Shown here: positions 998-25,279 of the stretch, piece by piece | Layout of the letters: the number at the start of each line of letters is the position of its first letter | Numbering within the stretch: the first letter of the stretch is position 1 | DNA from: Chloroflexota bacterium | Lineage (GTDB): Bacteria > Chloroflexota > Anaerolineae > Anaerolineales > VGOW01 | Assembly: GCA_016875735.1 (NCBI GenBank) | Contig: VGOW01000038.1 | Coordinates: 1 to 36,660 of the forward strand | Direction of reading: 5' to 3' | DNA: 36,660 nt | Notes under the pieces: generated by a model | Told to the model about the DNA's origin: nothing | The model's database searches: none | What the model saw: the letters and a program-made list of their open reading frames with translations, nothing else | Position numbers and translations under genes: made by a program

Positions 998-2437
998 TCA
1001 CCGAATGTCGCTTATGCGGCGGGTTTTTGCCTTGCGCCGCGTCGTTTGTGAGATAGCCTTAACTCGTGAGCGCCGTTTTCCATTTGCAGGTGATTTGAAT
1101 GCGTGACCATTCGCTCCAAGTTTTCGATCATGAACGGCTTTCGTATTCTTTCTGCGCACGACAACAATGTATTCCCGCGTCATGGTTGCGTCCACGGCAC
1201 CCGGAGCATTCGTAGGGCTGTTCCTCAAAGGCATTCTTTTGTTCGGAATTGAGCGGTGGAAAGTGCTAATATGCTCAAAGCCGAAGCCTTCAAAGAAATC
1301 TCGGATTGCAATATCAGTTGGCAAAACTACGCCCTTGACTTTGCGATTCCCAACAACGTAACACGCGTGGCCGCCCAAACGTATCAATTGCGACACGTGG
1401 AAGATCGAGTCGTGTAAATCGGAATAAAAGGAGGCAACTTCCAGCGCGCGTTTAATATCCGCACTGCTAATCTGGATCAAGGCTTTATTCAAAGCATCGC
1501 TAGGTAAGTTGGGGAGTGACTTAATGGCTTTCCCGCCCATCAGTTTGTTGTCAATCTTGCCTGGTTCAGGCAAACCCAACCATGCAGCAGAGAGGCGGGA
1601 GTATTGACCGTAAGCCACTGTTGTGTGTGAGTCGCCATATGGTGGAGACGTCACAACTATATCTACACTGGCAGGGAGCAGGGTGCCAGATGGAGTGCCC
1701 ACGACAGAATTAAAATCACACACTTGCACTGCAGGCGATTCCCTGAAATTGTGCATGATAGCAAGAAACTTATGTAGCCCCGCTCGATTCCGTTTGAGTT
1801 TCGAAGACATAATCTCAAACACATTTGGGTTGAAGGTGTGAAGCCTTTTGGAATCATAACGGTAAAGTTTGAACTCGTTGTTGCGGGTGTTGGAACTCTC
1901 CCTCACGGTTTCACTGAACGCAACCTGAAAAAACAACCTAACTGCATCATTCTCAATATCATCAATGAACATCTTGAGCCGGGATAGCTTTTCAGCAACC
2001 TGGGGCTTGAACCAAAAATCAATGCGACTGATACCCGGAATGAGGGATGGCTTTACAGAGCGGCTAACGTGCGAGCTCGCAATACATCTGTCAAACCTGG
2101 TGATTTGGTCGTCGATCTCCCGCTCATCAGGTGTACACGTTTTTGCTTGAGCAATGAGTCGAGCCAATGGATTCAAATCTGTGCCTACAGCATTGATCCC
2201 ACGAATCAGGCCCTCAACCAATGATGTCCCGGTGCCACAATAAGGATCGAATAACAACTTAGCATTGATGCCAAACATGTCCAACAGATTTCCCGCAACT
2301 TGCGGGATCATCCTGGCCGGATAATCGTGATAGCAGTGGGTCAATTCTCGCGTGGATGCGCCATTGAAAGTCCAGTCAAGCAAATCCGGGCGCGGGTTGA
2401 GTTCAGAAAACAGACTGACCTGATTTGTGTGGGCCAT
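998..2437 (-). CDS. DNA methyltransferase of a type II restriction-modification system
   Basis: A 479-residue SAM-dependent DNA methyltransferase. Residues 64-71 (DPYCGTGT) form the SAM-binding motif I, followed by GTDLNP. Residues 263-270 (TSPPYGDS) form catalytic motif IV; the SPPY form is usual for N4-cytosine methylases, though N6-adenine activity is not excluded. About 190 residues separate the motifs, leaving room for target recognition. The last 50 residues are strongly basic. ATG 2437 has AAGGAG in front. The gene lies 168 bases downstream of the endonuclease gene on the same strand, with a large palindrome between them. Base composition is clearly more AT-rich than the ECF or FeoB genes, which suggests horizontal acquisition together with the endonuclease. 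Confidence 0.85.
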   Translation of the reverse strand: MAHTNQVSLFSELNPRPDLLDWTFNGASTRELTHCYHDYPARMIPQVAGNLLDMFGINAKLLFDPYCGTGTSLVEGLIRGINAVGTDLNPLARLIAQAKTCTPDEREIDDQITRFDRCIASSHVSRSVKPSLIPGISRIDFWFKPQVAEKLSRLKMFIDDIENDAVRLFFQVAFSETVRESSNTRNNEFKLYRYDSKRLHTFNPNVFEIMSSKLKRNRAGLHKFLAIMHNFRESPAVQVCDFNSVVGTPSGTLLPASVDIVVTSPPYGDSHTTVAYGQYSRLSAAWLGLPEPGKIDNKLMGGKAIKSLPNLPSDALNKALIQISSADIKRALEVASFYSDLHDSIFHVSQLIRLGGHACYVVGNRKVKGVVLPTDIAIRDFFEGFGFEHISTFHRSIPNKRMPLRNSPTNAPGAVDATMTREYIVVVRRKNTKAVHDRKLGANGHAFKSPANGKRRSRVKAISQTTRRKAKTRRISDIR

Positions 2438-2490: not shown

Positions 2491-2578
2491 TCATTCTGAG
2501 CGAGCGTAGCGAGCGAAGAATCTCGCCCTTTTCATGCCAGAGCGGAGATTCTTCGGCGCTTCGCGCCTCAGAATGACA
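2491..2578. repeat. 88-bp REP/MITE-like palindrome
   Basis: Two arms of about 34 bases (2491-2524 and 2545-2578) are imperfect inverted copies. The outer part TCATTCTGAG is repeated inverted as CTCAGAATGA, and the inner part GAAGAATCTC as GAGATTCTTC, around a 20-base centre. It occupies the gap between the restriction enzyme and methylase genes. No transposase is nearby, so it is a non-autonomous repeat by appearance. It could also fold in the transcript and separate expression of the two genes. Confidence 0.8.
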
Positions 2579-2605
2579 GGCGCAGAGGCTTTAAGAAACA
2601 CTCTC

Positions 2606-3352
2606 TTACGCGTATATCTCACGGAGATCCCCTGCTACTGCGGAAAAGTTTCTCACAGGGGTATCCCAATCGCCCGGTTTGCAGAGATAAACGAAGTCAA
2701 AGAAACTCAATGCACCTCTCTGTTGCGGATTCATGATCTCATTGTAAAAGTTGGTTGTGATGAATCCGACCTTGAAATTGTTGCTGGCTTTGGAACTCAA
2801 CCCATACTTTTCTTTTATGGTTGTGGCGTCCTTGGATGTCGCAATATCCATAAGGAGCTTCCACCGATAAGTTTGCCCTGCCCTCTCTCGCAAAGATGTT
2901 TTCATAGAATAGATCAGGATTGGCTGCCTTACAGAGTCATTCGCACTATAGACGAGCAGATCGATATCTGGCTTTTGCACATCGTTCCCGACCTTAATAG
3001 TGGCGTATTGGTCAATGAGGCTGTGCTTCTTGGGTTTCAATACAAAAAGGAGGTGGTCTGGCAGGAGGCCTTCCTCTTGAAGATGTATCAAAGAGTACGC
3101 CACCAGTCCTTGAAAGCCGTTCCCCGCCACGCTCTTGCGGGTTTGTGCGAGGTCCTTGATTTTTCCGGCCTTGATCCGCTTTCTAATAAGGGCGGTTACC
3201 TGATCATCCGCATCATTCATAATCGCGTTGAGATAATCCAAGGCTTGTACTGGCCCAATGTCGTCAACCTTCTTCCTAAACAATTCCAGTATGGGGCGAA
3301 AATAGTACCTGGATTCTATCTCAGACTGTGTCTTGACATTTGCTTTCCGCAT
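2606..3352 (-). CDS. Putative type II restriction endonuclease (PD-(D/E)xK-like)
   Basis: A 248-residue protein. Residues 128-131 (PDID) and 149-157 (SMKTSLRER) fit the PD...(S/T)xK active-site variant of type II restriction enzymes; the SxKTSLRER-type motif recurs in several such families. A BsaWI/CCGG-family relationship is possible but not proven from sequence alone. The cognate methylase follows on the same strand. ATG 3352 is preferred, with GAGG 4 bases upstream; an in-frame TTG lies at 3364. It begins 31 bases after the stop of the FAH-family gene, so it may be read from the same promoter. Bases 2761-2820 contain only 24 G+C of 60, far below the flanking genes, consistent with transfer. 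Cleavage site and activity are unknown. Confidence 0.72.
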   Translation of the reverse strand: MRKANVKTQSEIESRYYFRPILELFRKKVDDIGPVQALDYLNAIMNDADDQVTALIRKRIKAGKIKDLAQTRKSVAGNGFQGLVAYSLIHLQEEGLLPDHLLFVLKPKKHSLIDQYATIKVGNDVQKPDIDLLVYSANDSVRQPILIYSMKTSLRERAGQTYRWKLLMDIATSKDATTIKEKYGLSSKASNNFKVGFITTNFYNEIMNPQQRGALSFFDFVYLCKPGDWDTPVRNFSAVAGDLREIYA

Positions 3353-3383
3353 CTTGCCTCGCAACGCATTGGTGATGAAGTGG

Positions 3384-4379
3384 CTACTCCCCCCTCACTA
3401 CCCGATTCCTCAACACGCCCAGCCTTTCAATCTCCAACTCCACCACATCGCCCGGCTTCAGCCACGGGCCTTCGCCCTTCGTCAGTTCGAGCAGACAGCC
3501 CGTGCCCACCGTGCCGGAACCGATCACATCGCCGGGCATGAGAAACGCATCGGCGGAAGCATGCTCGATGATCTGCCCGAACGAATAGAAGATGTCGCGG
3601 AAGTTGCCGCGCGAACGTTCCTCCCCGTTCACCCGCGCCGCCATTTCCAGATCGAACACGCCCGGCCTGCCGGTGGCGCGGTCGCGCAACTCATCCAGCG
3701 TCACCAGCCACGGGCCGAGCGACGTGGCAAAATCTTTGGCCTTCGCCGGGCCGAGCATCTTCATCTCTCTGCGCTGAACATCGCGCGCCGACCAATCGTT
3801 CATGATCGTGAAGCCGAAGATGAACTCTTCCGCGCGCGCCGCCGGAATATCGCGCCCATGTTGGCCGATCACGCAAGCGATCTCCAACTCATAATCCATC
3901 GCCTGCGTGTGCTTTGGATAGGGCACAGCTTCGTCCGGTCCGAACACTGAATTGGGGTTGGTGAAATAGAAAGCGGGGAACTGATACCACGCTTCGGGCA
4001 CTTCGCGCCCGCGGTTGCCATAGGCGGCTTTGACGTGCTGTTCGAAGGCATAGAAATCCCGCAGGCTCATCGGGCGCGGCAGAGGCGGATACAACGTCGC
4101 TTCGGGGCGCCGCCACCCCACCCGTGCCCGGTGCGCCCCCTTCGCCGTCGTTGGCTCCACGCCGTCCAACACATTCAACAGATTCCGCGCATACCGCCAC
4201 GCCGACTGCCCGGCGTGAATCAACTCGAACACCGAACCCGGCAGCGGCTCCGGCGGCAGGCCGCGCGCACCCTGCGCCCAACTCTGCGTGGCGCGCAGAT
4301 CGATCACCACATCGTCCAACATCGCGCCGAGCCTCGGCTCGCGAGGAGAGTCGGGGGTGGTAAAGGTAACGTATTTCAT
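3384..4379 (-). CDS. Fumarylacetoacetate hydrolase family protein
   Basis: A 331-residue enzyme of the FAH superfamily, which hydrolyses or decarboxylates beta-diketo acids, for example in aromatic amino acid breakdown. All key positions of fumarylacetoacetase can be placed: D108 and H115 in RDFYAFEQH (metal ligand and catalytic base), E164 and E166 in DYELEIACVIG, D195 in MNDWSARDVQ, and a lysine in PAKAKDFATSLGPW. The C-terminal GDVIGSGTVGTGC loop is also typical. The first 100 residues form the smaller N-terminal domain. The start overlaps the stop of the nucleotidyltransferase gene by 4 bases (ATGA), so the two are translationally coupled. The true substrate cannot be told from sequence; no homogentisate pathway genes are seen nearby. 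Confidence 0.9.
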   Translation of the reverse strand: MKYVTFTTPDSPREPRLGAMLDDVVIDLRATQSWAQGARGLPPEPLPGSVFELIHAGQSAWRYARNLLNVLDGVEPTTAKGAHRARVGWRRPEATLYPPLPRPMSLRDFYAFEQHVKAAYGNRGREVPEAWYQFPAFYFTNPNSVFGPDEAVPYPKHTQAMDYELEIACVIGQHGRDIPAARAEEFIFGFTIMNDWSARDVQRREMKMLGPAKAKDFATSLGPWLVTLDELRDRATGRPGVFDLEMAARVNGEERSRGNFRDIFYSFGQIIEHASADAFLMPGDVIGSGTVGTGCLLELTKGEGPWLKPGDVVELEIERLGVLRNRVVRGE

Positions 4380-5914: not shown

Positions 5915-7566
5915 GTCAATTGCCGCTGGTCATCAAACACCTTTCGTTCAAATATCGCAACCGCCCAACGTACGCGCTGCAAGATGTGTCGCTCGAACTC
6001 AAGCCCGGCGAATTGGTGGTGGTGGCCGGGACGAGCGGCTGCGGCAAAACGACTCTCATCCGCTGCATCAACGGCCTCATCCCGCGCAGTTACAAAGGCG
6101 ATCTCGAAGGCACGATGCTGTTCAACGGCGTGGGCGCCTCCACATTCTCGCTGGCGAAACTTTCGCAGATGGTGGGCACGCTTCTGCAGGACCCCGAAAA
6201 ACAAATTCTCGGATCGCAAGTGAAAAGCGAAGTGGCCTTCGGGCCAGAGAACCTTGGCCTGCCGCGCGAGGAAATTGCCGCGCGAGTGAACGAAGCGCTC
6301 GACCGTTTGGGCATCGGCTATTTGCGCGACCGCGAAACATTTTCCATTTCCGGCGGCGAAAAGCAAAAGGCCGCGCTGGCCGGGTTGCTCGCCATGCGTC
6401 CCAACATCTTGCTGCTCGACGAGCCGTTGGCCTCGCTCGACCCGGCTTCGGCTCGCGAGGCGCTGGCCGTGTTCCGCAAACTGGCCGACGAAGGCGCGAG
6501 CATTCTTTTGGTCGAGCACCGCGTCGAAGATACGCTGGCCACCAACCCCGATCGGATCATGTATCTCAAAGACGGCTGTGTGAAATATCTCGGCAAGCCG
6601 GACGGATTGGCCGACGCAGTGGACTGGCGCGAAGTGAAACTCCCCGCGCCGCAGGTCATCCGCCGTGTGCAAACGAGCGGCCAACCGTCCCGGCCCTCTG
6701 CGCCGCCGCCCGACCGACAACTTCGGGCCACACACGCCGCGCCGGTCATCGTGTTCGACCGCGTTTCGTTTGGCTATGGCGAAGGGCCGGACATTCTCAA
6801 AGATGTCAGCCTCGAAATCCGCACCGGCGAAACGGTGGCTATTCTCGGGCCCAACGGGGCGGGCAAAAGCACGCTCATCAAACATGCCATCGGCCTTCTG
6901 CACCCGCGCCGGGGCCGCGTGCTGGTGGAGGGCAAAGACACGCGCGAACTTTCGGTGGCGCAAGTGGCGCACACCATCGGCTATGCATTTCAGAGTCCCA
7001 CGCACATGCTCTTCGCGCCCACCGTGAACGAAGAACTGGCCTTCGGCCCGCACAATCTCGGCTACCCGCAGAACGAGATTGACGACTCGGTGGCGGCGTC
7101 GGTGAGCATCCTCAACCTCAACGGATTAGAATCGTATCCGCCGCTCTCGCTTTCATTCGGACAGCAGAAGCGCGTGACCATCGCCTGTGTGGTGGCGATG
7201 CGCTCGAAGATTCTCGCCCTCGATGAGCCGACCGCCGGGCAAGATTTCGGCAACTACATGTCGTTCATGGACAGCATCCTTCTCAACGAAGGCAAAGCCA
7301 GCGACGGCAAACCCGTCGTGTCCAATTTCGATGCGGTGCTGTTCATCACTCACGATCTCGATCTGGCCGTCACCTACGCCTCGCGTGTGATTCTGGTGGC
7401 CGATGGCGCGATTGCCGCCGACGGGATGCCGGAGACCGTGCTGAAAGATTACGCTTTGCTCCAGCGGTGCCGGGTGGTGCCGACTTCTCTGCTGGCAGAA
7501 AACATTCGCCTTCTGCCGCAGACGGGCAAATTCCAGCGGGCCGAGTCGTTGGCCGCAGTCCGGTAA
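5911..7566 (+). CDS. ecfA: Energy-coupling factor (ECF) transporter ATPase, two fused ABC domains
   Basis: A 551-residue protein with two ABC ATPase domains, equivalent to EcfA1 and EcfA2 fused. Domain 1: Walker A GTSGCGKT (40-47), signature SISGGEKQ (about 145-152), Walker B LLLDEP. Domain 2: Walker A GPNGAGKST (313-321), degenerate signature LSFGQQKR (414-421) in place of LSGGQ, Walker B LALDEP. A Pro-rich linker (about 255-275) joins them. It powers uptake with EcfT and an S-component encoded next door. The start overlaps the SAM hydrolase stop, so both are made together. The gene is GC-rich (bases 6421-6480: 43 G+C of 60), typical of the host. The deviation in the second signature suggests unequal ATP sites, which is inference. 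Confidence 0.92.
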   Translation: MSQLPLVIKHLSFKYRNRPTYALQDVSLELKPGELVVVAGTSGCGKTTLIRCINGLIPRSYKGDLEGTMLFNGVGASTFSLAKLSQMVGTLLQDPEKQILGSQVKSEVAFGPENLGLPREEIAARVNEALDRLGIGYLRDRETFSISGGEKQKAALAGLLAMRPNILLLDEPLASLDPASAREALAVFRKLADEGASILLVEHRVEDTLATNPDRIMYLKDGCVKYLGKPDGLADAVDWREVKLPAPQVIRRVQTSGQPSRPSAPPPDRQLRATHAAPVIVFDRVSFGYGEGPDILKDVSLEIRTGETVAILGPNGAGKSTLIKHAIGLLHPRRGRVLVEGKDTRELSVAQVAHTIGYAFQSPTHMLFAPTVNEELAFGPHNLGYPQNEIDDSVAASVSILNLNGLESYPPLSLSFGQQKRVTIACVVAMRSKILALDEPTAGQDFGNYMSFMDSILLNEGKASDGKPVVSNFDAVLFITHDLDLAVTYASRVILVADGAIAADGMPETVLKDYALLQRCRVVPTSLLAENIRLLPQTGKFQRAESLAAVR

Positions 7567-7750: not shown

Positions 7751-8296
7751 ATGGATAAGAGCATTTGGAAGTTCGGAACGCGCGAAGTGGTGTATGCCGC
7801 GATCGGCGCGGCGCTGTACGGCGTGCTGTCGTGGGTCACCAACATCTTCCCCCTGCCCTCGGCGGGCAATGTGTCATTCCGCCCGGCGGTGGCGGTGCTG
7901 GCGCTGTTCGGCGTGGCCTTCGGCCCGTGGGTGGGTTTGCTATCCGGGCTGGTGGGCAACACACTCGGCGATGCGCTCACCGGCTGGGGACTCTACTGGA
8001 ATTGGAGTGTGGGCAACGGGCTGATGGGCATGATCCCCGGGTTGGCCGTCTCCATGATCACGGCCTACAACAAACCGCGTGATATGGGCATTGGCGTAGG
8101 CTGGAGTTTGGGCGGCGCACTGGTGGGCATGGCCTTTGCCTCGCTCACCGAAATGATGGTGAGCGGCATTGATCTGAACACTGCATTGGTCGGCTACCTC
8201 ACGCCCGCCTTTCTCGGCAACGCGGTGATCATTATCATCCTCCTGCCGATTCTCATGATCGCCTACAACTCGGTGGCCGGACGTTTGGGGCGCTGA
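7751..8296 (+). CDS. ECF transporter S-component
   Basis: A 181-residue membrane protein with about six spans, the usual size of an S-component. It starts with a short basic segment (MDKSIWKFGTREVVY), then YAAIGAALYGVLSW and FRPAVAVLALFGVAFGPWVG, and a conserved GNTLGDALTGW loop. It is a paralogue of the product of 27-974. The ribosome site GAGGAGG precedes the ATG. Its stop TGA shares one base with the ATG of the EcfT gene (TGATG). By operon logic it supplies the substrate-binding subunit for EcfA/EcfT encoded beside it. Substrate is unknown; the neighbouring SAM hydrolase hints at a SAM-, methionine-, adenosine- or cofactor-related compound, but this is inference. Confidence 0.85.
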   Translation: MDKSIWKFGTREVVYAAIGAALYGVLSWVTNIFPLPSAGNVSFRPAVAVLALFGVAFGPWVGLLSGLVGNTLGDALTGWGLYWNWSVGNGLMGMIPGLAVSMITAYNKPRDMGIGVGWSLGGALVGMAFASLTEMMVSGIDLNTALVGYLTPAFLGNAVIIIILLPILMIAYNSVAGRLGR

Positions 8297-9174
8297 TGCT
8301 CGTCACCTGGAAATACCGCCCGCGCGACACGTTCATCCAGCGGCTCGATCCCCGCACGCGGATCATCATGCTGGCCTGCATGGTGGTGGCCTTCACCGTG
8401 TTCTGGGATCTGCGCGTGGTGCTGCCGCTGGCGGCGCTGTCGTTTGCGCTGTTTGGGCTGGCGCGAATCGAGTGGCGCGATGTCAAGCGGGCGGTGCTGT
8501 TCATTTCGGCTTTCGCCATCATTCTGGTGATCGTCAACGCCATCCTCGGAGCCAGAGGCGCCCCCCCCTCGGTGCGCGCCGACGTTTCGCCGGTGGTGTG
8601 GCAATCGCCGGAGATCGTCATCGGCAGTTGGCATTGGGCATTTCGAATCACGGCGGCGCGCATCATGTTCATGATCTCGCAGTTGTTGCGATTCTTGGGC
8701 ATGGCTTTCATGGCCATCCCCATCCCCTACACGCTCGACCCCGAACTGTACGGCGCAACCTTCCGCCAACTCGGCGTGCCCGATAAGCCATCCTATTCCA
8801 TTGACCTCGCCTTCCGGCTTGTGCCCACGCTGGCCCGCGATTTTGGAATCACTATCGATGCGCAGCGAGCGCGCGGCTACGAGTTGGATAAAGTGAAGGG
8901 CGGCCTCTTCGAACGCATCCGCCGCCTCGCGCCCATCATCGTCCCGGTGGTGATTCAATCCATCGTGGATGGCGAAGAGATCATTGACGCGATGGAACTG
9001 CGCGGCTTCGGCGTCGGCAAGCGCACGTGGACTCGGCACCTGCATTACCGCCCGGTGGATTACGCGATCATCGCCGTGGGGCTAGTGTTCGCTGTCGTGT
9101 GCACCCTCATGGGCCTCCTGCAAATTGCCGCCGACGTTTGGCTGCCGCCGCTTCTACTTTCGCTCGCCGGTTAA
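8296..9174 (+). CDS. ecfT: ECF transporter transmembrane protein EcfT (CbiQ-like)
   Basis: A 292-residue integral membrane protein. The N-terminus RDTFIQRLDPRTRI followed by clustered hydrophobic helices is typical for EcfT. The coupling-helix motifs are visible: AQRARGYELDK (the Ala-Arg-Gly motif) and, further on, MELRGFG. These helices dock the ATPase domains. The ATG shares one base with the S-component stop, so translation is coupled. A terminator follows at 9195-9226, closing the operon of SAM hydrolase, ecfA, S-component and ecfT. Confidence 0.9.
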   Translation: MLVTWKYRPRDTFIQRLDPRTRIIMLACMVVAFTVFWDLRVVLPLAALSFALFGLARIEWRDVKRAVLFISAFAIILVIVNAILGARGAPPSVRADVSPVVWQSPEIVIGSWHWAFRITAARIMFMISQLLRFLGMAFMAIPIPYTLDPELYGATFRQLGVPDKPSYSIDLAFRLVPTLARDFGITIDAQRARGYELDKVKGGLFERIRRLAPIIVPVVIQSIVDGEEIIDAMELRGFGVGKRTWTRHLHYRPVDYAIIAVGLVFAVVCTLMGLLQIAADVWLPPLLLSLAG

Positions 9175-9194
9175 CCCAATTCAGCGCCACACTT

Positions 9195-9226
9195 CAGAGG
9201 CGGCCCGGCGGGTCGCCTCTGTTTTT
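9195..9226 (+). terminator. Rho-independent terminator after ecfT
   Basis: CAGAGGCG (9195-9202) pairs with CGCCTCTG (9214-9221), followed by TTTTT (9222-9226). It lies 20 bases after the ecfT stop and 24 bases before the start of the next gene. Confidence 0.85.
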
Positions 9227-9249
9227 CGCTTGTGCTATCATTTGCGGCG

Positions 9250-10479
9250 ATGGACTACTACGCCATCCTCGACATCCCGCGCAGCGCCACCCCTGAGCAA
9301 ATCAAAGCGCAGTATCGCATCCTCGTCCAGCTCTTTCACCCCGACCGGCTTCAGCACGTCAACACTGCCGTGCGCGAATACGCCGAAGAGCGGCTGAAGA
9401 AAATCAACATGGCCTATGCCGTGCTCGGCGACCCGCTGAAGCGCGCAAAGTACGACGACGATGGCAGCCTCGCCGCCCCGTCCAAAGGCGGCAAGAAGCG
9501 CAAAACCCGTTTCGCCGACGACCCCGAGCCGATGTATGCCTACACCGCCAACTTCGACGACTCGGAAGTGGAAGATTGGATTCGCGAAGAAATGCGCCGG
9601 AGGGCTTACGAGGAAAGCCAGTATCAGGCGCGGCAGGCCCGCAGCGCCGAAGAGCAAAAACGGCGCGAGGCCGAAGATCGCGCCCGACGTGCCGCCGAAG
9701 CCAACCTGCCCCGTGCGCAAATCAAAGGAGATGAGCTCGTTCTACAGCTCGCTCCCGATCTGTGGCTGCCCCTCGTTCGAATCCCGGACGGCGACTTCCG
9801 CATGGGCAGCGACCCGGCCCGCGACCCCGAAGCGCGCACCGACGAATATCCCCAGCACACCGTTCATCTCAATGATTACTTCATTGGCAAGCACCCAATC
9901 ACTCATTACCAATATCAAATTTTCAAAGACGCCGCCGAGCCGCGCAAGCTCGGCGAAACGACTCGCTGGCAATGCCCGCCGGGCAAAGAGACTCACCCCG
10001 TCGTCAACATTTCGTGGGACGAGGCCACCGCGTTCTGCATGTGGCTGAGTCAGGAAACGGGCGTGATCTTCCGCTTGCCCACGGAGGCCGAATGGGAAAA
10101 GGCCGCGCGGGGAACCGATGGCCGCATTTTTCCGTGGGGAAACATTTGGGACGCGAGCAAAGCCAATTGCGATGAAGTGCGAGTGGGCACGACGCCGGTG
10201 GGCCAATTCTCGCCCGACGGCGACAGCCCCTACGGCGCCGCCGACATGAGCGGCAACGTGTGGGAGTGGTGCGCCGACCGATACGGCGAGAACGAATATC
10301 AGAGCCGCGCCAAGACGACGCGCAACCCGTTCGGCCCGGAAGACGGCGAGGGGGTGGTGGTGCGCGGCGGCGCATTCGACAAAAGCGCGAAGCACGCTCG
10401 TTGCGCTCACCGCAATTGGTATTATCCGTTCAACCGAAGAAGGGATGTGGGATTTCGGATTGTGGCCGAGCCGTTCTGA
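9250..10479 (+). CDS. J-domain / FGE-sulfatase-like fusion protein
   Basis: A 409-residue protein in three parts. Residues 1-70 form a DnaJ-type J-domain with the HPD motif at 30-32 (LFHPDRL), which would stimulate an Hsp70 partner. Residues 105-155 are a highly charged helical linker (EEMRRRAYEESQYQARQARS). Residues 170-408 form a formylglycine-generating-enzyme-like domain: GDFRMGSD, RLPTEAEWEKAARG, DMSGNVWEWCADRY, RGGAFD, and a final RDVGFRIV. Only one cysteine (C385 in HARCAHRN) is at the position of the catalytic pair of true FGE, so sulfatase activation is doubtful. ATG 9250 is chosen because the J-domain begins there; TATCAT at 9236-9241 fits a leaderless start. The stop is 3 bases from the convergent PBP gene. 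Confidence 0.88.
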   Translation: MDYYAILDIPRSATPEQIKAQYRILVQLFHPDRLQHVNTAVREYAEERLKKINMAYAVLGDPLKRAKYDDDGSLAAPSKGGKKRKTRFADDPEPMYAYTANFDDSEVEDWIREEMRRRAYEESQYQARQARSAEEQKRREAEDRARRAAEANLPRAQIKGDELVLQLAPDLWLPLVRIPDGDFRMGSDPARDPEARTDEYPQHTVHLNDYFIGKHPITHYQYQIFKDAAEPRKLGETTRWQCPPGKETHPVVNISWDEATAFCMWLSQETGVIFRLPTEAEWEKAARGTDGRIFPWGNIWDASKANCDEVRVGTTPVGQFSPDGDSPYGAADMSGNVWEWCADRYGENEYQSRAKTTRNPFGPEDGEGVVVRGGAFDKSAKHARCAHRNWYYPFNRRRDVGFRIVAEPF

Positions 10480-10482
10480 CTC

Positions 10483-13400
10483 CTACTTCTCCTTCACCGT
10501 AACCCTCACCGGCTCGCTTTCGGCGTCGTTGCCCGCCGCGTCCACCGCCCGCAGATGAATGGTGTGCGTGCCCGCGCTCACGCCTTTGAGCGGCCAACGA
10601 TACGTGAACGGCGCGACGGTGCTCGTCTGCGCTTTCTTTCCGTCCACAAAAATTTCGATGAAAGCCAATGACAGATTGTCTTTCGCGTCGGGCTGGACGA
10701 TGACCGATTCGTCTGCGCCGAGAGTGAAGGTGTCGTCGGGCGACGGCGTAATGAGGCTCACGACGGGCGGCGTGTTATCCACCGTCACTTGCACCGTGTA
10801 GTTGGCAAACGTCTGATCGTTTTTCACTGCCAGCAATTGAACCGAATACAGCCCGTTGGGCAAACCGGCGGTGTCCCATAGTTGCAATTCCGCGTTCTCA
10901 AGTTGTTCGCCGCGGTCGCCGCCGATCTGAGTCCATTGCGTGGGGTTGAGTCCCGGCCCGAACTGCACGCGAAAGAACGAGAAGTTGTCGCTCTTCACCG
11001 TGCCGGTGATGGGCACCGTGCCGCGCACATACGAGAACGGCTGGAGTGAAGTGATGACGATGTCGCCCGGCGTGGCTTCGGGCGGAGTGTAGATCGTGTC
11101 GTACTCAATGGGTGGCTGAGGCAGGCCGGCCAGCCGCACCCAGTCGGCGGCCTCCGGCGGCAAAATTTCGTACACACGATTCTCGATCAGTTCGGGCGGC
11201 GTGTACACTGTCGCCAGTTTGCCCGTCTCACGATTCACTTGAAACGCCTGCCAGATGTTGTCGAAATTCACCGGCTCGGTGCCGGGGATGAAAATTTCGT
11301 TGACGGTACTTTGGCAATCGCGTGTCGGCAAAAGGCCGCTGGGATAGCACACCGTCATGTGCGTGATGCCCGGCGGCTCATCCCAACCGAGAGGCGGCAA
11401 ACTTTGCGTGGCGTAAATCATGATCGCGCGCCAGATCGGGGCGGCGCCGGTGAGGCCGGTCACCTTTTCCATCGGAGTCGAATCGGTATTGCCCACCCAC
11501 ACCCCGGCGGCGATCTGCGGCGTGAAGCCGAGCGTCCAATTATCCACGAAATCGTTGGTGGTGCCGGTCTTCGCCGCGGCGGGGCGGTCGAGCTCCAACG
11601 GGTTCGGACTCCCGAACGCGCCGATGCGGGCCTGATTGTCCGAAAGGACATTCGTGATCAGATAAGCGAGTTGTTCGCTGAGCACTTGCTGTGTTTGCGG
11701 CTGGGCCAAGTCGCACGGCGATTGACCCTCGTCGCCACAGCGCAAAAGCAGATTGCCCTTCGAGTCTTCGATGCGCAGAATGGCGACGGGGTCGAGGGCG
11801 CGGTAGCCGCCGCGCCGCGCGTCGGGCGGGATGGCCTGCCCGGCCATTTGCCCCCGATTGTCCATCACGCCGTAAGCATACGTCATATCGAGCAGTGAAA
11901 CTTCGCCGCCGCCGAGCGTGAGGGCCAGGCCGTAGAAGTTCGACTCGCGGTCGAGGGTGGTGATGCCCATGCGGTGCGCGGTGCGGATGACGTTCTCGAC
12001 TCCGACGCGGCTCATCATTTCGACGGCGGGGACGTTATACGAACGCGCCAGCGCGATGCGCAGACTCACCGGACCGTGAAATTGGCGATCATAATTTTCG
12101 GGGACGTAGGGGATGCCGGTTCCGGTGGCGAACGCCGTGCGCACGTCGAGCACCATCGTGGCCGGGGTGTATCCCTGCGAGAAGGCAGTGATGTAGGTGA
12201 AGGGCTTGAACGAGGAACCGGGTTGGCGGCGTCCATCCACGGCGACGTTGAAGCGCCCATCGATCGCATCGTTCCAATAATCGAGCGAGCCGAGCATCAC
12301 CAAAATTTGCCCGCTGGCCGGATCGATCATCATCACCGAGGCATTGGAAACTTTGTGATCGACTCCGATGTCGGAGGCGCGCGGCGCGGGGAGGAACGCG
12401 GCGGCCTCGCACGGAGCGCCGATGACGGTGGGGATGACGGTGGCCGGATCGGCGCCGCCGAGCCGCACGACTTGAGTGCGCGCCACGCATTCGGCCTGAT
12501 CCTGCAAGTTGAGATCAATCGAGGTGATCACTTTGAGACCGCCGCGAAAGGTGAGTTCGGGGCCGAGCATTTGGGTGAGCTGATTGATGACGTAGAAACT
12601 GAAGTGCGGGGCGCGGATGTCGAAGCGCTGATTGAACGATTGCAGGCGGCCCAACACGTCTTCGGCTTTGGCCGCGGCGGCTTCGGCGCGAGTGATGTGG
12701 CCTTCGCGGGCCATGGCGTCGAGCACCAACTCTTGGCGGAACTTGGCCTCGTCGGGCGCGGCCAGCGGGTTGAGCGCCGGGTATTGCGGAATGGCGGCCA
12801 GCATCGCGCTCTCGGCGAGGCCGAGTTCGGCGGCGCTCTTGCCGAAATACACCCGCGCGGCGGCGTCAATGCCGTAGGCAAGGTTGCCGTAGAAGTTGGT
12901 GTTGAGATACCACTCCAGAATCTGATCTTTGCTGTATCGCTTCGTCACTTCGGCGGCGATGAAGAGCTCTTTGAGTTTGCGGTCGTACGATTTTTCGGCG
13001 CGTTGATCGGGCGGGATGATCACGTTTTTGACCAACTGCTGAGTGATGGTGCTGCCGCCCTGCACCGCGCCGCCGCGCAAATTAGACACGAAGGCGCGGG
13101 CGATGCCTTCGAGATCGTAGCCGGGGTTTTCGTAAAACGTTTTGTCTTCGATGGCGACGGTGGCATTGATGAAATGTTTGGGGATGCGGTCGATGCTCAT
13201 CCATTGGCGGTCGCCCGCGCGGGGATCGATCACTTCGTAGAGCAGCTGTGTGCCGGTGCGGTCGTAGAGTTTGGTGGTTTGGAAGAATTCGTTGTTCGAG
13301 GAGGAGAAGGCGGCTTCGAGCGTGTCGGCGGAGGGCAGATCGGCGACGTAATTGGTGTAGGCCTGCGAGAGGCCGATGCCGACTCCGGTGAGGGCGACGA

Positions 13401-13521
13401 GTCCCACCGTGGCGAGGGCGAGGGCCACCGAGGCGAGACTGCGCAAGAGGCGGCTGCCCCGTTGAGCAATTTGCCCACGGCGCATTCGGCGGCGGTGGAT
13501 GATGGAGGCGGGGGAGGGCAT
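10483..13521 (-). CDS. Class A penicillin-binding protein (transglycosylase/transpeptidase)
   Basis: A 1012-residue bifunctional peptidoglycan synthase anchored by one N-terminal helix (about 25-50). The glycosyltransferase-51 domain shows catalytic E125 in VAIEDKTFY and GGSTITQQLVKN (155-166). The transpeptidase domain has S436-S-F-K439 in RQPGSSFKPFTY, SYN at 494-496 and KTGT at 651-654. After about residue 830 come two beta-sandwich segments (TSLQPFSYVRGTVPITGTV and NTPPVVSLITPSPDDTF), like Ig/FnIII repeats, which lengthen the protein by roughly 180 residues compared with a plain PBP1A. These probably bind wall polymer or protein partners outside the membrane. Convergent with the J-domain gene, and divergent from the ATPase cassette. 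Confidence 0.93.
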   Translation of the reverse strand: MPSPASIIHRRRMRRGQIAQRGSRLLRSLASVALALATVGLVALTGVGIGLSQAYTNYVADLPSADTLEAAFSSSNNEFFQTTKLYDRTGTQLLYEVIDPRAGDRQWMSIDRIPKHFINATVAIEDKTFYENPGYDLEGIARAFVSNLRGGAVQGGSTITQQLVKNVIIPPDQRAEKSYDRKLKELFIAAEVTKRYSKDQILEWYLNTNFYGNLAYGIDAAARVYFGKSAAELGLAESAMLAAIPQYPALNPLAAPDEAKFRQELVLDAMAREGHITRAEAAAAKAEDVLGRLQSFNQRFDIRAPHFSFYVINQLTQMLGPELTFRGGLKVITSIDLNLQDQAECVARTQVVRLGGADPATVIPTVIGAPCEAAAFLPAPRASDIGVDHKVSNASVMMIDPASGQILVMLGSLDYWNDAIDGRFNVAVDGRRQPGSSFKPFTYITAFSQGYTPATMVLDVRTAFATGTGIPYVPENYDRQFHGPVSLRIALARSYNVPAVEMMSRVGVENVIRTAHRMGITTLDRESNFYGLALTLGGGEVSLLDMTYAYGVMDNRGQMAGQAIPPDARRGGYRALDPVAILRIEDSKGNLLLRCGDEGQSPCDLAQPQTQQVLSEQLAYLITNVLSDNQARIGAFGSPNPLELDRPAAAKTGTTNDFVDNWTLGFTPQIAAGVWVGNTDSTPMEKVTGLTGAAPIWRAIMIYATQSLPPLGWDEPPGITHMTVCYPSGLLPTRDCQSTVNEIFIPGTEPVNFDNIWQAFQVNRETGKLATVYTPPELIENRVYEILPPEAADWVRLAGLPQPPIEYDTIYTPPEATPGDIVITSLQPFSYVRGTVPITGTVKSDNFSFFRVQFGPGLNPTQWTQIGGDRGEQLENAELQLWDTAGLPNGLYSVQLLAVKNDQTFANYTVQVTVDNTPPVVSLITPSPDDTFTLGADESVIVQPDAKDNLSLAFIEIFVDGKKAQTSTVAPFTYRWPLKGVSAGTHTIHLRAVDAAGNDAESEPVRVTVKEK

Positions 13522-13564
13522 AGGGGCAAGGATGGCGTAGAGAGAAATGTTGTCACAAAGAGGT

Positions 13565-13577
13565 GCAACATTGTTGC
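13565..13577. promoter_or_regulatory. Perfect 13-base palindrome between divergent genes
   Basis: GCAACA-T-TGTTGC lies 44 bases upstream of the PBP start (minus) and 68 bases upstream of the ATPase start (plus). Perfect dyad symmetry in a divergent intergenic region is what an operator looks like, but no regulator gene is adjacent. Chance occurrence cannot be excluded. Confidence 0.35.
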
Positions 13578-13644
13578 CAGAAGGCGTAGGTGAAGTAAAA
13601 TAGTTGAGCGCTTACAGAGCGGCCCCCAGTGTAATCGAGGTTAT

Positions 13645-14796
13645 ATGCGCATAAGTCATATCGAACTGTATAGCTGGAAGAACTTCCGACAAGTGAAAGT
13701 CGATTTGCAAGAACGGGTGTTTCTCGTTGGCCCCAATGCTTCTGGCAAATCTAATTTTCTGGATGCCCTGCGTTTCCTGCGCGATTTGGCAATCCCAGGT
13801 GGAGGCTTGCAACGCGCCTGTGTCGAACGTGGTGGCGTATCCAAAATCCGATGCCTGGCTTCTCGGCAAGATCCAGAGGTTGGCATTACTGTAAGTTTAG
13901 CAGAAAGCAAGGATACGTTGTGGCAATATGAAATCAAGTTTAACCAACAGCCTCGCGGTTATCGCTCACCGCTTCTCACCCATGAAGCCGTTTACAAGAA
14001 CGGCTCTCTGATCTTGAAACGCCCTGACGAGAGTGACCGTGGGGATACGCCGCGTTTAACACAAACTGCTCTAGAGCAAATCAATCTGAACGTTCAATTC
14101 CGCGAGATTGCCCAATTCTTCGAAAAGATTTTTTACCTTCATTTGGTGCCTCAAATCATTCGAGGCGCTGAACCAGGTGGCAATGGTAGTTTGGCTGATG
14201 CCTATGGTCGAAATTTCCTTGAGCGTGTGGCTCAGACCAGCAAGAAAACTCGTGATGCTCGATTGCGGCGTATACGCGATGCATTAGCGATAGCAGTGCC
14301 ACAGCTGAAAGAATTATCTCTCGTCAAGGATGAGCGCGGTGTTCCTCATTTGATAGGGGCTTATGAGCATTGGCGGCCGCGTGCCGCCAAGCAAAATGAA
14401 GAACAATTCTCAGATGGCACTTTGCGCCTTCTGGGTCTGTTATGGGCACTTCAAGAGGGGGACGGCCCTCTTCTACTAGAGGAGCCCGAATTGTCTTTGC
14501 ATACTGGCGTAGTGCGTCGCTTGCCGAACCTAATCTATCGAGCGCAACGGGCACAGAAGAAAGCTCTCCGCCAAGTGATTCTCAGCACTCATAGTGCAGA
14601 TCTCTTGTCCGATCCGAGTATCGGGGGAGAAGAGGTGTTAATGCTTGCCCCCAGCACTGAGGGGACACAAGTCAAGGTGGCGGCAAGTGTACCGGAAATC
14701 CGGCAGTTGCTCGAAGATGGGATGAATGCTGCTGATGCCATTATTCCACATACCGAACCAGAGCAGGCAATTCAACTGGAGTTATTTGCTTTGTGA
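13645..14796 (+). CDS. AAA ATPase (SMC/RecF/OLD-type), putative defence protein
   Basis: A 383-residue ABC/SMC-superfamily ATPase of the AAA_21/AAA_15 sort. It opens with MRISHIELYSWKNF, typical of RecF/OLD-like ATPases. Walker A is GPNASGKSN (29-37), the signature region is FSDGTLRLLGLLWAL (from 255), Walker B is LLLEEPELSLH (277-287), and the switch histidine is in STHSADLL (314-321). There is no long coiled coil. GAGG lies 4 bases before ATG 13645. The stop overlaps the GTG start of the TOPRIM-like gene by 4 bases. The pair looks like a split OLD system or PARIS (ATPase plus TOPRIM effector). Bases 13681-13740 have 29 G+C of 60, well below host genes, so it is probably acquired. Confidence 0.88.
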   Translation: MRISHIELYSWKNFRQVKVDLQERVFLVGPNASGKSNFLDALRFLRDLAIPGGGLQRACVERGGVSKIRCLASRQDPEVGITVSLAESKDTLWQYEIKFNQQPRGYRSPLLTHEAVYKNGSLILKRPDESDRGDTPRLTQTALEQINLNVQFREIAQFFEKIFYLHLVPQIIRGAEPGGNGSLADAYGRNFLERVAQTSKKTRDARLRRIRDALAIAVPQLKELSLVKDERGVPHLIGAYEHWRPRAAKQNEEQFSDGTLRLLGLLWALQEGDGPLLLEEPELSLHTGVVRRLPNLIYRAQRAQKKALRQVILSTHSADLLSDPSIGGEEVLMLAPSTEGTQVKVAASVPEIRQLLEDGMNAADAIIPHTEPEQAIQLELFAL

Positions 14797-15404
14797 AGCA
14801 CATTACCGTGAGTCTGGCAGTGGAAGGATTGTTGGACGAGCAAGTCTTGAGATGCCTGTTGATGCAATCTGGCAAACCACTAAAGGCTGGTGCATGCTAT
14901 GGCAAGCAGGGCCGTAACCATTTGTTACAGAATCTGTATCGGTTCAATCAGGCTTCTATTCACACTCCCTTTATTGTGCTGGCGGACCTCGATCGGGACG
15001 AGTGTGCTCCAGCTTTGGTGAAACGTTGGCTCCCTTCCGGCGGGCATCCTAACTTCATTCTACGAATTGCTGTGCGCGAGATCGAGTCATGGCTGATGGC
15101 AGATGCCCAGGCCTTTGCGGAATTCCTTGGTGTACCGCCAAGCAGGATTCCGCTACGACCCGACGAAGAATCCGATCCAAAGGCTCTGGTCATATCTCTG
15201 GCTCGGAGGTCACGATACAGAGAAGCGCGCGAGGATATAGTGCCTGCCCCAAGTAGCACAAGCCAGGTAGGCAAAAACTATAACGGACAGCTTTCCAAAT
15301 TTGTTCTGCAACATTGGAACGTTCAACGAGCTCGCAAGTGTTCGCCCAGCCTCGATAGTGCATTGAGTGCTATCAAGGATTTCACTCCTACTACATTCAA
15401 TTAG
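14793..15404 (+). CDS. TOPRIM-like (DUF4276-like) protein, partner of the ATPase
   Basis: A 203-residue protein starting at GTG 14793, which overlaps the ATPase stop (GTGA). Features fit a TOPRIM fold: an early acidic residue in SLAVEG (E11), then IVLADLDRDE with D65 and D67, then REIESWLMAD (E96, E98, D104). TOPRIM domains cut or re-join nucleic acid using two metal ions, and stand-alone DUF4276/DUF4435 TOPRIM proteins act as effectors next to SMC-like ATPases. The C-terminal half (SQVGKNYNGQLSKFVLQHW) is not assigned. Base composition matches the ATPase gene, so both travelled together. Family placement is by motif only; nuclease activity is inferred. Confidence 0.7.
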   Translation: MKHITVSLAVEGLLDEQVLRCLLMQSGKPLKAGACYGKQGRNHLLQNLYRFNQASIHTPFIVLADLDRDECAPALVKRWLPSGGHPNFILRIAVREIESWLMADAQAFAEFLGVPPSRIPLRPDEESDPKALVISLARRSRYREAREDIVPAPSSTSQVGKNYNGQLSKFVLQHWNVQRARKCSPSLDSALSAIKDFTPTTFN

Positions 15405-15405
15405 C

Positions 15406-15690
15406 GTGTCGGTTTTCCAGCACTCCAATTCTATCCTCATCACTGGCTGTTCGACCGGCTTTGGCCGAGCGACGGCCCTGCCCTTTGCGCGCAAGGGCTG
15501 AAAGTTTTTGCCACGGTGCGGAAAGAGAGCGACCGCGAGAGTCTGCTGAACGAAAGGGCGGGCGACATCGTTCCGTTGCTGTGCGATATTGTGCATGAAG
15601 ATCAAGTGCAAGAATTGGGCCGGGCAGTGGCGGCGCGCACGGAGACACTCGACGCATTGGTGAACAACGCCGGGTCGGCCTTTGCCGCGC
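15406..15690 (+). pseudogene. Broken 5' fragment of a short-chain dehydrogenase/reductase
   Basis: From a possible GTG at 15406 the frame reads NSILITGCSTGFGRATAL, the Rossmann TGxxxGFG nucleotide-binding motif, and hits a TGA after ARKG. The expected continuation (LKVFATVRKESDRESL ... LDALVNNAGSAFAAP, including the NNAG motif) is in another frame, so about one base has been lost near 15490-15498. The protein ends after roughly 95 of the usual 250 or so residues, where the sequence changes into a thioesterase gene. It begins directly after the TOPRIM-like stop. Non-functional as it stands. Confidence 0.82.
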
Positions 15691-16294
15691 CTATGAACTG
15701 ATCAACGAGTCCGGCGGTGAGACCGTCGCCCGCGCCACCACCGATTGGGTGTACGTGGACTCCGCCACCCTGCGCCCGGCCACCATCCCCCCCGAAATGG
15801 CGGCCGCCTTCGGGGTATCGCCCGATTCCGAACCCGGGCCGCGCTACAAATTCCCGCCCGCCCCACCGCCCCCGCCCGGAATCTTCCGCGCCAGGCGGCG
15901 CGTGCAGTGGCGCGAGATCGATTCGCAGATGCACCTGAACAACGCCATGGTTGTGGAATACGCCAGCGACTGCGGCGGCCCCCTGCTGGAAGCGCACGGC
16001 TGGACGTATCGGCGCATGATCGACGAAGGCTTCGGCATCGTCATCCGGCGGTATCACGTCGAATACAAACAATCGGCGCAGCTCGACGACGAACTGGAAA
16101 TCGCCTCGTGGCTGTCAGAGGTGCGGCGGGCCACCGCCATCCGCCATTACACCCTCCGCCGCGTGAGCGATGGCTCACTGCTGGCGCAGCTCCATGCCTT
16201 CGCCGTGTGGATCGATCTCAGCGCCGGCCAGCCCATCCGCATCCCCCCGCGCTTCATCGCCAATTTCGCGGCCAACATCTCGGCTCCCCAGTAA
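15689..16294 (+). pseudogene. 5'-truncated acyl-ACP thioesterase (hotdog fold)
   Basis: About 200 codons in one open frame: YELINESGGETVARATTDWV (end of a first hotdog domain), a Pro-rich linker (APPPPPGIF), then a second 4HBT domain with RVQWREIDSQMHLNNAMVVE and a final AFAVWIDLSAGQP. Such thioesterases (about 280-300 residues) release fatty acids from acyl carrier protein. The first 80-100 residues with the start codon are missing and replaced by the dehydrogenase fragment. A GTG at 15749 could restart translation but lies inside the first domain, so I call it a pseudogene. GC-rich, i.e. native sequence, unlike the cassette upstream. Confidence 0.75.
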
Positions 16295-19939: not shown

Positions 19940-20056
19940 CCTTGGCAATGACCTACTCTCCCAGGCGGTCTCCCGCCAAGTACCATCGGCGCTGGCGGTC
20001 TTAACTTCCGGGTTCGGGAAGGGACCGGGTGTGCCCCCGCCGCTCAAATCACCAAG
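19940..20056 (-). rRNA. rrf: 5S ribosomal RNA
   Basis: About 117 bases. The 5' end CTTGGTGA pairs with the 3' end TTGCCAAGG, and the conserved CCCGAACCCGGAAGTTAAG and GATGGTACTT segments are present. Last gene of the rRNA operon; ends are estimated to within a few bases. Confidence 0.93.
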
Positions 20057-20141
20057 AGACGAATTCACGATGTAAAGGACTGAATACTCAAGAGAAAGAT
20101 GTGTGTGAAGTCGAAACTCCAAGTTCTCCGCATCACGTTGG

Positions 20142-23084
<2,943 letters not shown>

Positions 23085-23399
23085 ACGTGATGCGGAGAAA
23101 TTGAAGTTTCCACATTCACATGTTCGTGTCACTTTCTCTATCTTTGTCGTTTCATGAGTATTCAGTTGGTAAAGTGCAACCGACCCCCGCCGGATTCGGC
23201 GTTGGACGCCGATGGCTGATGTGGAAGCGGCGCTTCCAAGTCACCCATCGAAACCCAACGTTCTTTGATTTTGTAAAAGAGACAAAACGACCCGGCACAT
23301 CGCCGAGCCATTGTTGACCAAAAGGCGATCTACCTAAAAGTATGATTAGAAGAAGTATTCCTTCGACAAACCCGTCGTCTTTCCTTTTCCACTACTCAG
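23085..23399 (-). other. Spacer between tRNA-Ala and 23S
   Basis: It begins with the arm of the 23S processing stem. It contains several small GC-rich hairpins in a row around 23190-23240, for example GCCG-GATT-CGGC and GGAAGC-GGC-GCTTCC. No gene is seen. Confidence 0.6.
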
Positions 23400-23472
23400 T
23401 GGAGATGAGGGGGCTCGAACCCCTGACTTCCGCCTTGCAAAGGCGGCGCTCTCCCAACTGAGCTACATCCCC
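23400..23472 (-). tRNA. tRNA-Ala (TGC)
   Basis: A full cloverleaf: acceptor GGGGATG/CATCTCC with discriminator A, anticodon stem CCGCC/GGCGG with loop TTTGCAA, T-stem AGGGG/CCCCT with loop TTCGAGC. CCA is not encoded (CTG follows). Located in the 16S-23S spacer. Confidence 0.97.
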
Positions 23473-23476
23473 ATGG

Positions 23477-23550
23477 CAAAGGATAAATTTGGAATTATGA
23501 ACAATGAACTTCTGAACTTTCATCCTTCACCGTCCATAATCCATCCTTTG
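23477..23550. repeat. Inverted repeat between the two spacer tRNA genes
   Basis: CAAAGGAT (23477-23484) and ATCCTTTG (23543-23550) are perfect inverted copies, followed inward by GGAATTATG against CATAATCC with one bulge. The motif style (AAGGAT, ATTATGAA, CATCCTT) is that of the repeat at 33121-33186. Confidence 0.6.
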
Positions 23551-23556
23551 ATAAGG

Positions 23557-23630
23557 TGGGCCTTTCTGGACTTGAACCAGAGACCTTCCCCTTATCAGAG
23601 GGATGCTCTAACCAACTGAGCTAAAGGCCC
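23557..23630 (-). tRNA. tRNA-Ile (GAT)
   Basis: Acceptor GGGCCTT/AAGGCCC with discriminator A, anticodon loop CTGATAA, and T-loop TTCAAGT. CCA is not encoded (CCT follows). Located between 16S and tRNA-Ala, the usual order of a spacer tRNA pair. Confidence 0.97.
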
Positions 23631-23661
23631 AGACAGACTCACATAGTAAAGACGGCCAAGT

Positions 23662-23689
23662 CCTTTACAACTCAATAGTGACAGGAAAT
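23662..23689 (-). other. 3' arm of the 16S processing stem
   Basis: 28 bases, inverted copy of 25356-25383 with two mismatches. In the precursor RNA the two arms close a long helix around the 16S sequence, the classical RNase III substrate. Confidence 0.85.
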
Positions 23690-23776
23690 ATCACACTTGG
23701 GCTTACCCTTCGGGGGAAGGGTAATCAAGCAGGAGATAGAGCGCCTGCCCGCAGGCAATTGCTCGATACTCCCTAG

Positions 23777-25279
<1,503 letters not shown>

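Follow-up and report, generated by a model that had tools for sequence, protein, structure and literature searches.

A HEC-01 gene pair from a Chloroflexota bacterium as a probable split ATPase-TOPRIM conflict system

A two-gene cassette located in a window of 36,660 nucleotides (the whole stretch of DNA that was analysed, from contig VGOW01000038.1 of a Chloroflexota bacterium) was assigned by profile matches to HEC-01, a named candidate of PADLOC-DB 2.0.0, and is probably a split ATPase-TOPRIM conflict system that works by a PARIS-like keeper-and-release principle, with a putative nuclease as effector and a presumed role in defence. The contribution of this work is evidence for how HEC-01 probably works. 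We computed the predicted fold and the conserved acidic residues of the effector, the linkage of the two genes, their co-evolution, a patchy and mobile distribution and the presence of restriction-type neighbours; among these, the linkage, the mirroring of the two trees and the Hma or type III-like genes beside some relatives are new, as is a same-genus interval that is empty or holds other cargo.

Both genes lie on the plus strand. The gene for HEC-01A, an ABC/SMC-head-type ATPase, spans positions 13645..14796 (ATG start, ORF of 383 aa), and the gene for HEC-01B, a protein of predicted TOPRIM fold, spans positions 14793..15404 (GTG start, ORF of 203 aa), with four bases (14793-14796) common to both ORFs; an earlier note on this DNA had given the cassette, its coordinates, the 4-base overlap and the 203-residue partner exactly. 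The cassette has a G+C content of 50.6%, and GC3 was 0.47 and 0.52 for its genes versus 0.75-0.85 in the three flanking genes on each side. The counts by which the pair had been called AT-richer than its flanks (29 G+C of 60 in 13681-13740 and 43 of 60 in 6421-6480) were likewise exact. When 282 segments of cassette length were compared, leaving out those starting in the rRNA region, 13 were lower in G+C, each of them starting between 0.7 and 1.9 kb, in the region of a DNA methylase gene. That other AT-rich stretch carries a type II-like methylase (998-2437, minus strand; PADLOC MTase_II, E of 4.5e-120) next to an ORF (2534-3541, plus strand) without Pfam or PADLOC match, and the lower G+C at 20-25 kb fits the rRNA operon (5S, LSU and SSU, with tRNA-Ala and tRNA-Ile) at 19940-25278 on the minus strand. 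The promoter of the pair presumably lies at 13522..13644, between the pair and a PBP gene that is transcribed away from it. A single sigma-70-like match was present there (13574-13601), such matches occurring in the region at chance level (2 found, 1.8 in shuffles). Terminator matches around the cassette were at chance level only, no RNA family reached its gathering score within the cassette, no direct or inverted repeats of at least 14 bp were detected in 13400-15800, and no tRNA lay within 7 kb.

The earlier note had regarded the pair as undescribed and had listed membership of a named system as a refutation; the pair is such a member, both proteins being present in PADLOC-DB 2.0.0 as HEC-01. 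HEC-01A was matched by profile PDLC04180 (E of 4.4e-154; residues 1-380 on profile positions 1-380 of 382) and HEC-01B by profile PDLC04194 (E of 6.8e-67; residues 1-199 on positions 1-199 of 204), that is, over nearly their whole length. According to the part of the source available, HEC means Hma-embedded candidate, and HEC-04, an ATPase-TOPRIM fusion, protects E. coli from T4 and T5 (PMC12111858). Several HECs, including HEC-06, are described as active in the accessible text of another report (PMC12988326), and in the portion available of a third HEC-01 is simply listed by name among other systems (PMC12724379). The literature searched yielded no mechanism for HEC-01. The combination of an ATPase with a TOPRIM domain is itself of a known kind, represented by OLD, Gabija, PARIS and HEC-04.

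The ATPase carries all the motifs that had been read from its sequence, and these were conserved across 76 homologues, namely the window protein and those of 75 of the 80 loci described below (L045, L050, L080 and L087 were left out for in-frame stops and L068 for an ambiguous letter). In the Walker A motif GPNASGKSN (residues 29-37; 13729..13755, plus strand), G29, N31, A32, G34, K35, S36 and N37 were present in 76 of 76 sequences, as were S256, D257, G258 and R261 of the ABC signature-like FSDGTLRL (residues 255-262; 14407..14430, plus strand) and E279, E280 and E282 of LLLEEPE, which comprises Walker B and the catalytic Glu (residues 276-282; 14470..14490, plus strand); H316 of the switch STHS (residues 314-317; 14584..14595, plus strand) was found in 75 of 76. 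Pfam assigned the protein to AAA_21 (E of 2e-38), and the PADLOC profile of AriA, PDLC02980, matched it with an E of 5.4e-33, a far weaker match than that of HEC-01A. The AlphaFold2 model (pLDDT of 93.1) had the heads of SMC, Rad50 and PtuA as nearest solved folds (Z of about 21), and the best PDB sequence match was GajA (E of 1.6e-14, over the first 58 positions). HEC-01A is the probable sensor, and the probable keeper of the nuclease.

In HEC-01B, the acidic residues listed in the earlier note were all found, and most of them proved to be strongly conserved in an alignment of 66 partner sequences. E11, the presumed catalytic Glu (14823..14825, plus strand), was present in 66 of 66; in the presumed metal-binding DxD motif D65-L66-D67 (14985..14993, plus strand), D65 was equally invariant and position 67 was Asp in 59 and Asn in 7 sequences; and within REIESWLMAD (residues 95-104; 15075..15104, plus strand) E98 was conserved in 65, W100 in 66 and D104 in 60. 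The complete set of invariant residues comprised E11, D65, W100, K130, G160, A180, S186 and L187. On the partner tree, Asn at position 67 accounts for 7 changes, so that either the motif does not strictly require its second Asp or some of the proteins are impaired. The alignment omits L068, three partners cut by contig ends (L010, L060 and L080), five broken ones (L034, L048, L066, L067 and L078) and the loci without partner (L027, where the contig ends, L047, L050, L069, L073 and L079). Apart from its own HEC-01B profile, the partner was matched by DUF4276 (PF14103), marginally (30.8 bits at a gathering cut-off of 30.2) and over profile positions 38-117 of 192 only; no paper on DUF4276 was found in the literature search. 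Neither DUF4435 (Pfam) nor AriB (PADLOC) matched at E of 1 or below, which agrees with the idea put forward beforehand that the effector differs from the DUF4435 protein of PARIS.

Since the search of the partner profile against PDB sequences returned rows at chance level only (best E of 0.68), a fold search was needed. The AlphaFold2 model of the partner, built from 66 input sequences, had a pLDDT of 96.4 and a pTM of 0.91. In this predicted model, strands at residues 4-10, 30-37, 60-65 and 88-93 belong to an alternating beta/alpha core, with E11 just past strand 1 and D65/D67 at the end of the third strand, as in a TOPRIM fold. After re-alignment of 1000 Foldseek candidates, the first six rows were OLD TOPRIM domains (Z of 9.4, 8.2, 8.0 and 8.0) and chains of a PARIS complex, taken to be AriB from their length (Z of 8.6 and 7.5), with rmsd of 3.6-4.1 over 160-164 residues, and the first unrelated row had a Z of 6.2; according to the aligner's own notes, a best Z of 7-8 is typical for models without a clear relative. 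Further down the ranking were two retron OLD-type chains (Z of 5.5 and 4.7) and a small TOPRIM protein (Z of 4.5). Foldseek alone was weaker, with a best E of 6.8e-3, none below 0.001, and probabilities of 0.96-0.97 for OLD and 0.28 for the PARIS chain. The fold match is thus not overwhelming, and it is these predicted-fold matches, together with the position of E11 and D65/D67 at strand ends, that make the partner TOPRIM-like; the structure prediction that the earlier note had proposed as a check of its TOPRIM-like partner came out in its favour, with both the OLD TOPRIM domain and the AriB-like chain. HEC-01B is a probable metal-dependent nuclease.

The same comparison bears on the substrate. 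The TOPRIM protein might cut or nick phage or plasmid DNA, as in OLD or Gabija, and the ATPase might sense DNA or the level of nucleotides, a reading that we rate as a serious option though somewhat below even chances, and which is a variant of the best explanation and not a contradiction of it. It draws on the best fold match being an OLD TOPRIM domain, on the clear preference of Foldseek for OLD and on the nearest folds of the ATPase being SMC, Rad50 and PtuA heads; however, the PARIS chain was about equal after re-alignment (tied within 1 in Z), and the fold itself cannot tell DNA from RNA.

The two genes are closely linked. A four-sequence ATPase profile searched against genome contigs gave at least 369 confirmed relatives, and in the best 80 of these loci the partner was directly downstream in 74 (66 full-length, 3 cut by contig ends and 5 broken). 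The partner profile used for this count was built from 33 'next ORF' sequences, the window's included, chosen by length and motif from the same loci, so that these members match it by construction. With cut and broken partners included, 74 of the 80 loci have the same two genes side by side, so the pair does not consist of chance ORFs. All 66 full-length partners were separate ORFs starting at most 14 bp from the ATPase stop; 65 lay within 10 bp and 36 overlapped the ATPase by 4 bp, overlapping starts being preferred where a choice exists. This organization, with ATPase and TOPRIM-like partner in two ORFs and fold matches to both OLD and the PARIS complex, bears out the split OLD/PARIS-like design suggested from the sequence. 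Distances in the ATPase and partner trees were correlated over 64 pairs (r of 0.82), a value reached in none of 999 permutations. No partner was found in 5 of 79 testable ATPase loci (L047, L050, L069, L073 and L079), the contig of L027 ending inside the ATPase. Three of them (L069, L073 and L079) have a HEC-01A-type ATPase at one shared site without partner, beside a gene that we take to be IMP cyclohydrolase-like.

In six loci (L034, L048, L066, L067, L078 and L004) the partner showed an internal deletion, a missing part, a frame break or a split, and the ATPase frame was open. These could stem from errors of assembly or from decay of an effector that carries a cost, and since most loci come from metagenome assemblies, gene breaks can be artefacts. 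Losses of this kind are expected for a costly toxin and would suit an ATPase-regulated toxin-antitoxin pair, selfish or stabilising, for which defence is incidental. We consider this unlikely: stops were also seen in ATPase frames (L045, L050, L080 and L087), and no plasmid copies were found by tblastn. The loci were fetched by their ATPase, so ATPase losses are undercounted.

The best 80 loci cover 23 named phyla, 3 of the loci being archaeal, and 64 of the 66 rows of the partner alignment carry 19 named phyla. On the ATPase tree, 30 phylum changes were counted among 55 labelled rows of 19 phyla, compared with a mean of 43 and a minimum of 38 in 200 shuffles, which indicates some vertical signal and much transfer. 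Within the phylum, the partner matched in 7 of 400 genomes, including the window's own, 4 of them strongly. At the sensitivity used, no relative was found in phages and plasmids by tblastn or in viral contigs searched with the ATPase alignment, and the partner as sole query gave no close relatives in genome contigs or viral contigs. Judged from these sequences, the distribution appears to be patchy and mobile, and the cassette would, if this is right, move between bacteria and archaea.

We also clustered the flanking ORFs of the best 80 loci for recurrent neighbours. Hma-type or type III-like restriction-modification genes were present on the same strand in 11 of the 80, at most 190 bp upstream in 9. 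A helicase of one cluster was upstream in seven loci (L032, L048, L053, L056, L058, L065 and L068), within 190 bp in five of them, at 2.1 kb in L048 and at 6.4 kb in L068; the five of these helicases that were compared with profiles were HmaA. In L048, L056, L058 and L068, methylases of a single cluster lay downstream, and the L068 member, the one compared with profiles, was HmaB. In four other loci (L019, L035, L045 and L052) a type III-like methylase was upstream at a distance of no more than 40 bp (MTase_III in both of those tested), and a large gene of one cluster was downstream in three of these, weakly REase_III in L035 (E of 2.4e-10) and without match at E of 1e-30 or below in L019. In L068, another HEC-01B (E of 1.9e-71) was found just upstream of the pair; this region of an Anaerolineae chromosome (L068:8101-15736) has two HEC-01B genes in a row ahead of the HmaB methylase, the first of them preceded by a gene at 8101-9345.

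The earlier note had proposed co-occurrence in defence islands as a check, and here the outcome was different. A scan of near neighbours that covered 118 of 278 ORFs, all from L009-L042, gave mostly metabolic and housekeeping families among those listed, and the commonest PADLOC family, among 25 of 222 listed, was HmaA, in 3 of 118 ORFs; the tables comprise 25 of 222 and 25 of 126 families and are counts of families, not named proteins. In a rough control of 86 ORFs at least 7 kb away, 17 PADLOC families were found, each in 1 of 86. With the families listed for the scanned near neighbours mostly housekeeping in appearance and defence hits also in the far control, there is no general defence-island setting, and the support from neighbours comes from embedding among restriction-type genes.

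The apparently housekeeping settings seen in these partial scans, together with the SMC/Rad50-type head of the ATPase, could also point to a repair or chromosome-maintenance pair, a Rad50-like head with its nuclease, and not to defence; an archaeal OLD-family ATPase, Cran1, has a cell-cycle role instead of a defensive one according to the section available (PMC12796447). Such a function is improbable here, because the partner is as patchy in the phylum as described above, four other same-genus genomes lack an ATPase match better than E of 1.9e-5 (two of them only 63% and 76% complete), and phylum switches and relatives among restriction genes are not a housekeeping pattern.

Because the partner is assigned to TOPRIM and some relatives lie among restriction genes, a PARIS-like mechanism is the best bet for the pair. 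HEC-01A would most likely form an ATP-bound oligomer that holds HEC-01B silent, would sense an invader, probably through a phage protein or disturbed nucleic acid, and would then release or activate HEC-01B. The latter would cleave nucleic acid by means of metal ions bound at E11, D65/D67 and E98; its substrate may be host RNA, by analogy with AriB, or DNA, by analogy with OLD and Gabija, and infection would fail at a cost to the cell. A release model for PARIS, in which AriB is a tRNase, is given in the accessible part of one study (PMC12409363), and the split PARIS pair is treated as a possible OLD class 4 in the portion available of another (PMC10568477). The available text of a 2026 BREX survey describes TOPRIM-linked OLD-ABC pairs in BREX and Hma-type ('BR') systems and proposes for them a backup layer (PMC12839542). 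More tentatively, HEC-01 may be a guard of restriction-type systems, in which the ATPase would recognise phage anti-restriction proteins, in the way that AriA recognises Ocr, and would then set free a distinct TOPRIM ribonuclease of the DUF4276 family; it would then form a separate split class beside PARIS, in bacteria and archaea, occurring alone and with Hma or type III-like genes, with modules that can be stacked, as the second HEC-01B of L068 suggests. This extended proposal is possible but has the odds clearly against it. If the PARIS-like reading is right, a catalogued candidate gains a concrete mechanism, a switch split into ATPase and TOPRIM protein for which candidate catalytic residues are named, and the range of TOPRIM effectors in immunity widens beyond DUF4435 and OLD.

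With PARIS the pair shares the order of the two genes, an ATPase and then a TOPRIM protein, the fold match of the partner to the chain taken as AriB, and acidic motifs (E, DxD, E) whose order and spacing resemble those of three DUF4435 proteins, including one from the source genome; it differs in that the partner is not a DUF4435 protein and has 203 aa versus 306 residues in the PARIS chain, and in an ATPase of 383 aa versus 464 for AriA. A comparison of the partner profile with a DUF4435 protein was partly collinear and not significant (probability of 9%). OLD and GajA of Gabija likewise combine an ABC ATPase with TOPRIM and provided the best fold match of the partner and the best PDB sequence match of the ATPase, respectively, but in OLD classes 1-3 and Gabija both parts are in one chain, whereas the window pair consists of two ORFs, and its neighbours are a PBP gene and a remnant of a short-chain dehydrogenase (SDR) gene, not a helicase. 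HEC-04 has the same architecture in one fused chain, with a different partner family. PDC-M38 (ATPase plus DUF3226, which we take to be TOPRIM-like) also has this architecture and lies close to the corresponding interval of another genome in the genus, but its partner family is different, and the partner profile was partly collinear with a DUF3226 protein without significance (probability of 13%). As for HEC-01 itself, some relatives adjoin Hma genes, whereas the window copy is not inside an Hma system.

The position of the cassette beside the PBP gene had been recognized correctly, and what had been called a recombination scar on the other side turned out, by tblastn with same-genus SDR genes, to be a decayed 5' SDR remnant (about 15424..15695, plus strand), which forms the right-hand edge of the insertion site. 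Two genomes of the same genus, G318 and G401, have PBP orthologues with 77% identity, and in a third, G402, the orthologue is in pieces. The PBP and SDR genes of G401 are about 370 bp apart with nothing between them; the interval of G318 holds a PD-(D/E)XK gene and an nSTAND1-WD40 gene; and that of G402 holds a glyoxalase-like ORF, with the PDC-M38 pair 1.5 kb past the SDR gene. At L113:374-5445, the corresponding interval in a genome of the same genus, an nSTAND1 NTPase carrying WD40 repeats and a PD-(D/E)XK_3 protein are encoded, without PADLOC match at E of 1e-4 or below. The ATPase search in the four other same-genus genomes included two that are 97% and 92% complete, and the partner search among same-genus genomes covered G318. 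The interval takes up varied cargo and, judged from three genomes, may favour defence genes. The best explanation is that the cassette was gained by horizontal transfer between the PBP gene and the SDR gene, and, if so, cargo of this kind is exchanged at this interval within one genus. That the cassette adjoins a decayed SDR gene might also mean that it is itself dead in the source genome, but with both frames open and the motifs intact this is very unlikely.

The source genome contains two further loci of related type. A second, distant HEC-01A relative is encoded at G000:C75:1903-3000 (L121), with 30% identity over residues 2-355 (E of 4.6e-12). At positions 402-2316 of L129 (G000:C25), another ATPase gene is directly followed by a DUF4435/AriB-type gene (32.8 bits in Pfam, E of 1.7e-9 for AriB in PADLOC).
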